From Rhodospirillaceae bacterium (GTDB lineage Bacteria > Pseudomonadota > Alphaproteobacteria > SMXQ01): DNA of 57,642 nt. Position numbers and translations under genes: made by a program. Below the pieces are notes generated by a model. The model saw only the letters and a list, made by a program, of their open reading frames with translations, ran no database searches and was not told the DNA's origin. Numbering within the stretch: the first letter of the stretch is position 1; every line of letters starts with the position of its first letter. Where the stretch lies: positions 1 through 57,642 of the forward strand of contig CANJIM010000006.1 of the NCBI GenBank assembly GCA_947474495.1. The letters run 5' to 3'. Positions 16,798-19,054 of the stretch are shown here, in pieces.

Positions 16798-17988
16798 CTA
16801 AGATTCGGCAAGAATATCCGCGGTTCTTTGCATCTGCGCGTAGTCGGCCAGCACCGGGCTGTATTTCGACCCGACCGGATAAACGGCGTCTTCGACGACG
16901 GAGAAGCGATAGCCGAGCGCCGCGCCGTCGCGCAGCGTGGCACCAAGGCAGCCCGAGGTGGCGCCGCCCGACAGCAGGCAATGCGAGACGCCGAGATTGC
17001 GCAGGGCGCGGTGCAGGGGCGTGAAGCCGAAGCCGCTCTGGCCACGCTTGTAGAGGAGGTAGTCTTTCGGCGCCGGCGTCAGGCCGTCGGCCAGCTCCGC
17101 GCCCCAGGTGCCATCGAGCAGCAAGCTATCGCCGCCGAGCAGGATGTCTTCGCGCAATTTATGCATGGCGGTATCGACGCGGTCGGCGCGCCGGCCGGTC
17201 TTGAGCCAGATCACCGGCCAATTCTTGGCCCGCAGGTGATCGGCGAGCTGCGCGCAATGGCGCACCAGCTCACTGTTGCGCGCGAAATTCTTTTGCCGCG
17301 CCTCTTCATCGCCTTTCTGCGGAAATAGGAAATGATTCTGCATGTCGATGATGAGAAAGGCTGACCGGTCGGCCTTCGCGGCCGCGCCGGATTGCGGTGC
17401 GGCGAGGGCCTCATCCGTCGTCACCGCTTGCGCCGAACTGATGGATGGATAGCTGGCGAGCGGCGGAAAAACGGCGTCGCCAGCGAGAAAGACGCGATAG
17501 CCGAGCGCCGCGCCGTTGCGTGCCGTGTCGCTGAGGCTGGCCGACAGCGGCCCGCCGGCGAGCAGCAGATCGTGGGCGCCGAGATTGGCGAGAATGCGGT
17601 CGAGCGAGCTGCCGGCAAAGACGCTGTGGCTGGCGCGCGTGATGACGAGATCGTCGCCTTGCGGCGCGAGGCCCTCCAACCAACTGGCGCCGACGCTGCC
17701 CTCGACGAGAAAGCCGCTTGCCGCGCCGAAATGGCGCTCGGCCCAGCCATGGCCCCACGCACAGTCAGCCATGTCGGCGCGAAAGGCGCTACGCGCCCAG
17801 ATCACCGGCTGGCCGGCGGCGCGGAAGCGCTCAGCCAAACGTCGGATATTGCCGGCCATGGTCGCAATCTCGCCGTCGCTCATGCGGCGCTTTCCGCTGC
17901 GGCCGAGACAGCCGTCCGCCGCCAAATAGTCGGCTTGAACGTCGGTGATGATGAGCGCTGCTTGATCGAGCGCGAAGATTTTGGTCAT
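16798..17988 (-). CDS. Tandem isochorismatase-fold hydrolase, first domain degenerate
   Basis: The 396-residue protein holds two cysteine-hydrolase domains of the isochorismatase family, residues about 1-195 and 205-396. The second has the intact triad: Asp215 (LIIDMQNHF), Lys314 (YKRGQSGF) and Cys347 (TSGCLGA). The first aligns closely but has Asp16, Arg118 in place of Lys and Ser151 in place of Cys, so it is probably inactive. Family members hydrolyse isochorismate, nicotinamide or carbamoyl-type amides; which one applies here is unknown. Usual members have one domain of about 200 residues. AGGAG precedes the ATG at 17988. Confidence 0.9.
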   Translation of the reverse strand: MTKIFALDQAALIITDVQADYLAADGCLGRSGKRRMSDGEIATMAGNIRRLAERFRAAGQPVIWARSAFRADMADCAWGHGWAERHFGAASGFLVEGSVGASWLEGLAPQGDDLVITRASHSVFAGSSLDRILANLGAHDLLLAGGPLSASLSDTARNGAALGYRVFLAGDAVFPPLASYPSISSAQAVTTDEALAAPQSGAAAKADRSAFLIIDMQNHFLFPQKGDEEARQKNFARNSELVRHCAQLADHLRAKNWPVIWLKTGRRADRVDTAMHKLREDILLGGDSLLLDGTWGAELADGLTPAPKDYLLYKRGQSGFGFTPLHRALRNLGVSHCLLSGGATSGCLGATLRDGAALGYRFSVVEDAVYPVGSKYSPVLADYAQMQRTADILAES

Positions 17989-18040: not shown

Positions 18041-19054
18041 CTAAACGCGCGGAACGGCGAGGTCCGGCAATTGCAGATCGACGATGATCGGCCGGTGGTC
18101 GGACCCTATATCGGGCCCGACGCGATTGGCGCGCGGCGCGATGTCCGCGCTGACCAAGGCTTGGTCGATCGATAGCGCGAACAGCGGCGCGAGGCCGGTC
18201 GGCAAATGGGCGGATTGCCACGTCGGCTGCAGGCCGCGCAAACGCGAACTGTCCTGCAGGCCGGTGACATCGATGAGCCGCGCGAAGGTCGGCGACCAGG
18301 GCGTCAGATTCAGATCGCCAATGATGATCGCGGAGCCGAGTTGCGCCATCGCGGCGCGGGCCGCGAGATCAAGCTGCCGGGTGCGCAGTGCCGCGCCGCC
18401 GCCGAACGGCGCCTTGGCATGCAGGGTGACGACGCGCAGGCACGCTCCGCGCGTGCCGGCCGGCGGGCAGAGATCGGCGCTCAGCACCGGCATGTCGGGA
18501 TGCGCTGAGCGGTTGGTCTCGATCGCCGCGATCGGCCAGCGGCTGTAGAGCGCGACGTCATGCAGGCCCTTGCTGCGCGCCGGGATGCGATGGGGATAGC
18601 TGTCCGTCAGCGTCGCCATGCGCTGTTCGATGTCGCCCGCCACTTCGGTCAGCAGGATGACGTCGGGTTTTTCCGCCGCGATCAGGGCCAAAAATTTGGC
18701 GGGGTCGGTATCGGAGCCATGCATGTTGAAACTCAACAGCCGCAGGCTCGGGCCTGCGGCCGCAACCGCGGCGGGCTCGCGCAGATAGATCATCAGATGC
18801 GGCCAGAGCGGCAGGACGTTGGCCGCGAGCAGCACGACATTGACGACGATCATTGGCTTGTGGCGCAGCGCCACCGCGAAGATCAATGTGGCGACGGCGA
18901 GAACGGCAAGCTGCGGGCGGAAATTGGCGAACAGTTCGAGCGGCCAGGCAAAGCCGCCGAGCACGGCGCTGAGCGTCGCGAAGCCGAGGCCGAGCGTCGC
19001 CGCCAGGACGAAGACGGTGAGCAGCGCGAGGCGGGGGGACGCTTGTTGACTCAT
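18041..19054 (-). CDS. Membrane-anchored endonuclease/exonuclease/phosphatase-family protein
   Basis: The 337-residue protein has three hydrophobic segments in its first 90 residues and then an EEP domain. Visible motifs are LRLLSFNMHGSDTDP, DVILLTEVAGD, IIIGDLNLTPWSP and GSDHRPIIVDLQL, which carry the Asn, Glu, Asp and His residues of this metal-dependent phosphoesterase fold. Alphaproteobacterial members of this layout are uncharacterised; phospholipid or nucleic-acid phosphodiesters are possible substrates. It starts 16 bases downstream of the gshB stop on the same strand. Confidence 0.9.
   Translation of the reverse strand: MSQQASPRLALLTVFVLAATLGLGFATLSAVLGGFAWPLELFANFRPQLAVLAVATLIFAVALRHKPMIVVNVVLLAANVLPLWPHLMIYLREPAAVAAAGPSLRLLSFNMHGSDTDPAKFLALIAAEKPDVILLTEVAGDIEQRMATLTDSYPHRIPARSKGLHDVALYSRWPIAAIETNRSAHPDMPVLSADLCPPAGTRGACLRVVTLHAKAPFGGGAALRTRQLDLAARAAMAQLGSAIIIGDLNLTPWSPTFARLIDVTGLQDSSRLRGLQPTWQSAHLPTGLAPLFALSIDQALVSADIAPRANRVGPDIGSDHRPIIVDLQLPDLAVPRV

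Follow-up and report, generated by a model that had tools for sequence, protein, structure and literature searches.

A two-domain isochorismatase-fold protein with one intact and one degenerate active site in a Rhodospirillaceae bacterium

The window analysed here, a 57,642-nucleotide stretch of contig CANJIM010000006.1 from a Rhodospirillaceae bacterium, exhibits on its reverse strand an ORF encoding two isochorismatase-like domains in a single chain. The gene and its parts are as follows:

16798..17988 (-): tandem isochorismatase-fold gene, 396 amino acids plus stop; orthologue (L036 in genome G001) 83-84% identical
17458..17967 (-): half 1, with a degenerate active site, residues 8-177; PF00857 score 89 bits
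17368..17457 (-): C-terminal unit of half 1 plus linker, residues 178-207; conservation is lower here, with 73% amino acid identity to the orthologue
16861..17367 (-): half 2, with an intact triad, residues 208-376; PF00857 score 104.9 bits

Of the in-frame ATG codons at 17988 and 18009, the former is the better start, since an AGGAG motif lies six bases ahead of it. A scan for promoters and terminators found none. Upstream on the same strand lie an Exo_endo_phos (phosphatase-like) gene and gshB, which are 15 bases apart in the window; downstream, in convergent orientation, are an SDR gene and a TauD-family gene. Synteny of lppC, rsmI, yraN, a BON gene and gshB is kept in most of the family, and the phosphatase-tandem-SDR-TauD block beside gshB is found only in the two genomes of the genus. 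This neighbourhood indicates no pathway or metabolite for the tandem protein. The phosphatase-like neighbour (18041-19054, minus strand) is only 59% identical to that of the congener, a value below the 78-94% of most surrounding genes. In the congener, an alpha/beta-hydrolase-like ORF (L076 7093-7809, plus strand) stands between gshB and the phosphatase-like gene.

The protein matches the Pfam isochorismatase family PF00857 twice, once in each half, with an overall score of 190.5 bits against a gathering cut-off of 27. The close alignment of the two halves claimed in the preliminary description is confirmed by BLASTP (34% identity over 191 columns, E-value = 4e-25) and by a Smith-Waterman score of 232, where shuffled sequences gave a mean of 33 (sd 5.5) and a maximum of 59. 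In both halves the Pfam match stops at model position 148 of 175, and the altered C-terminal unit that they appear to have in common fits descent from a common parent. Scores against two characterised subfamilies, RutB (TIGR03614; 91.6 bits, equivalog cut-off 377.95) and the biuret amidohydrolase BiuH (NF050097; 88 bits, cut-off 370), are so far under the NCBIfam cut-offs that the tandem protein is neither a RutB nor a BiuH.

To read the residue states at the active sites, 99 domains of the family, taken from the genome of the window and related ones, were aligned. The positions concerned are:

17941..17943 (-): Asp16, the triad aspartate of half 1, kept (family alignment and half-to-half alignment)
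17635..17637 (-): Arg118, at the catalytic lysine position of half 1; same in the orthologue
17548..17550 (-): Pro147 of half 1, equivalent of Thr158 of the triuret hydrolase TrtA, a residue that contributes an oxyanion-hole backbone nitrogen (alignment; PMC7948467)
17536..17538 (-): Ser151, at the nucleophilic cysteine position of half 1; same in the orthologue
17344..17346 (-): Asp215, triad aspartate of half 2
17047..17049 (-): Lys314, triad lysine of half 2
16948..16950 (-): Cys347, nucleophile of half 2

Half 2 thus carries the complete Asp-Lys-Cys triad and half 1 has lost two of its three residues, exactly as first described. The combination Asp/Arg/Ser occurs in two of the 99 domains, half 1 and its orthologue. 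Most domains (74) are Asp/Lys/Cys; others have Gly (14), Ser (3), Ala (2) or Val (1) at the cysteine position together with Asp and Lys, and with one exception the domains bearing such a replacement keep the lysine. A proline at the fourth residue before the cysteine position is found in three domains, including half 1 and its orthologue, and the third is itself devoid of the aspartate and the lysine. Proline has no backbone NH to donate. In TrtA the oxyanion hole is formed by the backbone nitrogens of Thr158 and Cys162, and the C162S change abolishes activity (PMC7948467). By analogy, Pro147 would be a further defect of half 1, with one oxyanion-hole NH lost. Arg118 alone is no proof of inactivity, since the related YcaC, whose active site lies between chains, carries an arginine that forms a salt bridge with the aspartate (PMC4519933). 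That half 1 is probably incapable of cysteine-hydrolase chemistry is therefore argued from Ser151 and Pro147 more than from Arg118.

In a single-domain member of the family (L012 1501-2022), located upstream of an AraC-like ORF, the triad reads Asn, Ala, Cys and a proline precedes the cysteine by four residues; this protein is possibly another pseudoenzyme.

Modelled alone (residues 1-199), half 1 yields a confident AlphaFold2 prediction (pLDDT 81.9, pTM 0.86). Its best fold match is RutB (Z = 23.0, rmsd 2.7 over 193 residues), closely followed by VibB, EntB and PhzD (Z about 22). Half 1 belongs to the superfamily by its sequence profile and its fold, though not by its catalytic residues; loss of conserved catalytic residues with retention of the fold, here read from the sequence and the predicted structure, is what characterises a pseudoenzyme. 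The full-length model, built on a shallow alignment, is weak (pLDDT 67.1, pTM 0.54), and the packing of the halves cannot be judged from it. Among the solved structures listed as matches, no chain is long enough for two such domains, none exceeding 287 residues.

The orthologue, found in the only congeneric genome, exhibits identical states at all six triad positions and also keeps Pro147. Because all the states of the degenerate site recur there, neither an assembly error nor fresh decay accounts for them, and a sequencing or assembly artefact is rejected. Purifying selection acts on both halves, less strictly on half 1. In this comparison of two sequences only, one from each species, half 1 has a dN/dS of 0.22 (bootstrap 0.13-0.35) and half 2 one of 0.09 (0.088; bootstrap 0.03-0.17), the former exceeding the latter in 0.988 of the bootstraps; half 2 is 93.5% identical to its orthologue at the amino acid level.

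Phylogenetic analysis, proposed at the outset as a check, places the two halves as sisters both in a rapid tree of the 99 domains (SH-aLRT 99) and in a more careful one of 51 domains (bootstrap/SH-aLRT 96/85). Because this grouping joins two long branches, it supports duplication well without settling it. On the family alignment half 2 is 0.306 identical to half 1, which is not above its identity to several single-domain relatives. That the gene arose by duplication within an isochorismatase-like cysteine hydrolase, with one half now catalytically defective, is well supported by the sister halves, the state of the congener and Pro147. A fusion of two unrelated family members is disfavoured, since the halves are sisters in the trees. 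The single-domain L012 adjoins the pair in the careful tree on a very long branch, and was not used as a relative of half 1.

Full-length matches are confined to the genus among 11 genomes of the family, the other nine having no orthologue. Beyond the genus, no full-length match was found in 385 genomes of the class or 398 of the phylum, samples that overlap with each other and with that of the family. A scan of genome contigs, which detects close relatives only, returned the same orthologue and one distant single-domain gene. Plasmid sequences gave only tblastn matches below 60% identity, the four best by coverage consisting of two pieces of the query aligned to a stretch of some 510 bases, the length of a single domain, and viral contigs gave no match to the tandem protein.

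Among 289 genomes of the class, there are four other complete two-domain isochorismatase proteins, two in G169 and two in G070:

L073, 2619-3959 (+): intact two-domain protein, both halves Asp/Lys/Cys
L074, 2035-3369 (-): intact two-domain protein, both halves Asp/Lys/Cys
L050, 652-2106 (-): intact two-domain protein, both halves Asp/Lys/Cys
L154, 1501-2883 (+): intact two-domain protein, both halves Asp/Lys/Cys, read directly

The first three lie apart from the pair of the window in both trees; L154 was not included in them. These proteins, from two alphaproteobacterial genera, appear to form a family derived from a separate duplication. Their N- and C-terminal halves tend to group by position. 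In another genome (G039) the first half of such a protein runs to the end of the contig. A further two-domain profile match (G169:C1 186124-187389) is interrupted by a TAG codon, and may correspond to a pair of neighbouring genes that are not fused. The two-domain architecture thus appears to be rare, not unique, the novelty lying in the degenerate half: the suggestion that such members are uncommon holds for the class sample, with the reservation of four intact proteins in two genera. Homologues with two intact halves, foreseen as an objection to the first interpretation, are the rule in this independent family and not among the orthologues. We found no literature on two-domain isochorismatases in the open-access papers covered.

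Our favoured reading, to which we give a probability of roughly 55%, is that half 2 does the catalysis, with half 1 as a folded pseudoenzyme retained as its partner after the internal duplication, which would predate the split of the two known species of the genus. Half 2 is most likely a C-N amide hydrolase, in which Cys347, activated by Lys314 and Asp215, would attack an amide or ureide C-N bond to form a thioester that is then hydrolysed. Half 1, deprived of the nucleophile, the lysine and one oxyanion-hole NH, would not catalyse C-N hydrolysis; the retained Asp16 possibly leaves room for other chemistry there. Most likely it serves instead as a pseudo-subunit, covalently joined to half 2, whose active site it would stabilise and perhaps complete or gate. 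We propose such a role because relatives build their active sites at subunit interfaces, as in TrtA, where Gln202 from the other subunit completes the site (PMC7948467). The C-terminal units of both halves are altered, so an interface like that of TrtA is not to be taken for granted. The more specific proposal of a single-chain heterodimer with one catalytic centre per pair, its sole active site being completed or gated by the conserved pseudo-subunit, is tentative, and we hold it a little less probable than not. The constraint on half 1 and its confident fold are consistent with the structural or regulatory role originally suggested, although the role itself is one that we infer.

Next in order, and rather improbable, half 1 could act as a regulatory domain, switching half 2 in response to a metabolite ligand that it binds. 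A retained fold with a constrained sequence fits a binding pocket without catalysis, and the substrate-bound structure of C162S TrtA indicates that binding can survive the Cys-to-Ser change (PMC7948467), but the gene neighbourhood points to no metabolite that might be sensed. We consider it unlikely that half 1 is a decaying leftover of the duplication, kept by the common reading frame and the need to fold: its higher dN/dS would be expected of such a remnant, but the value is well under 1, two species share exactly the same degenerate state in an unbroken reading frame, and half 1 is predicted to form a complete fold. True isochorismatases such as EntB, PhzD and VibB cleave a vinyl ether without a cysteine nucleophile, and a half 1 still active through a similar aspartate-based chemistry would agree with the retained Asp16, the near-equal fold matches to these enzymes and the frequency of cysteine-less domains in our sample; we regard this as the least probable reading, since those domains have the lysine that half 1 lacks, Pro147 is nearly absent from the sample, and half 1 evolves faster than half 2.

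With half 1 as a pseudoenzyme partner, the gene would offer a natural test of the division of labour following the fusion of enzyme subunits that share active sites, one half being freed from catalysis while the other is kept under tighter constraint. For comparison, intact two-domain proteins from the other genera are at hand. Like the tandem protein, L073, L074, L050 and L154 have two PF00857 domains arranged head to tail within a single chain; in contrast, both of their halves are Asp/Lys/Cys, and their best-scoring half spans nearly the whole Pfam model. YcaC resembles half 1 in having an arginine in place of the lysine of the others (PMC4519933), and differs from it in keeping the cysteine and in being a single-domain octamer. 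RutB, TrtA and BiuH have the fold of PF00857 in common with the tandem protein and exhibit the Asp-Lys-Cys triad of half 2, of which RutB is the best solved-structure match by sequence; the tandem protein is distinguished from them by its two domains in one chain. Whereas these relatives have one catalytic centre per subunit, the proposed single-chain heterodimer would have one per pair.
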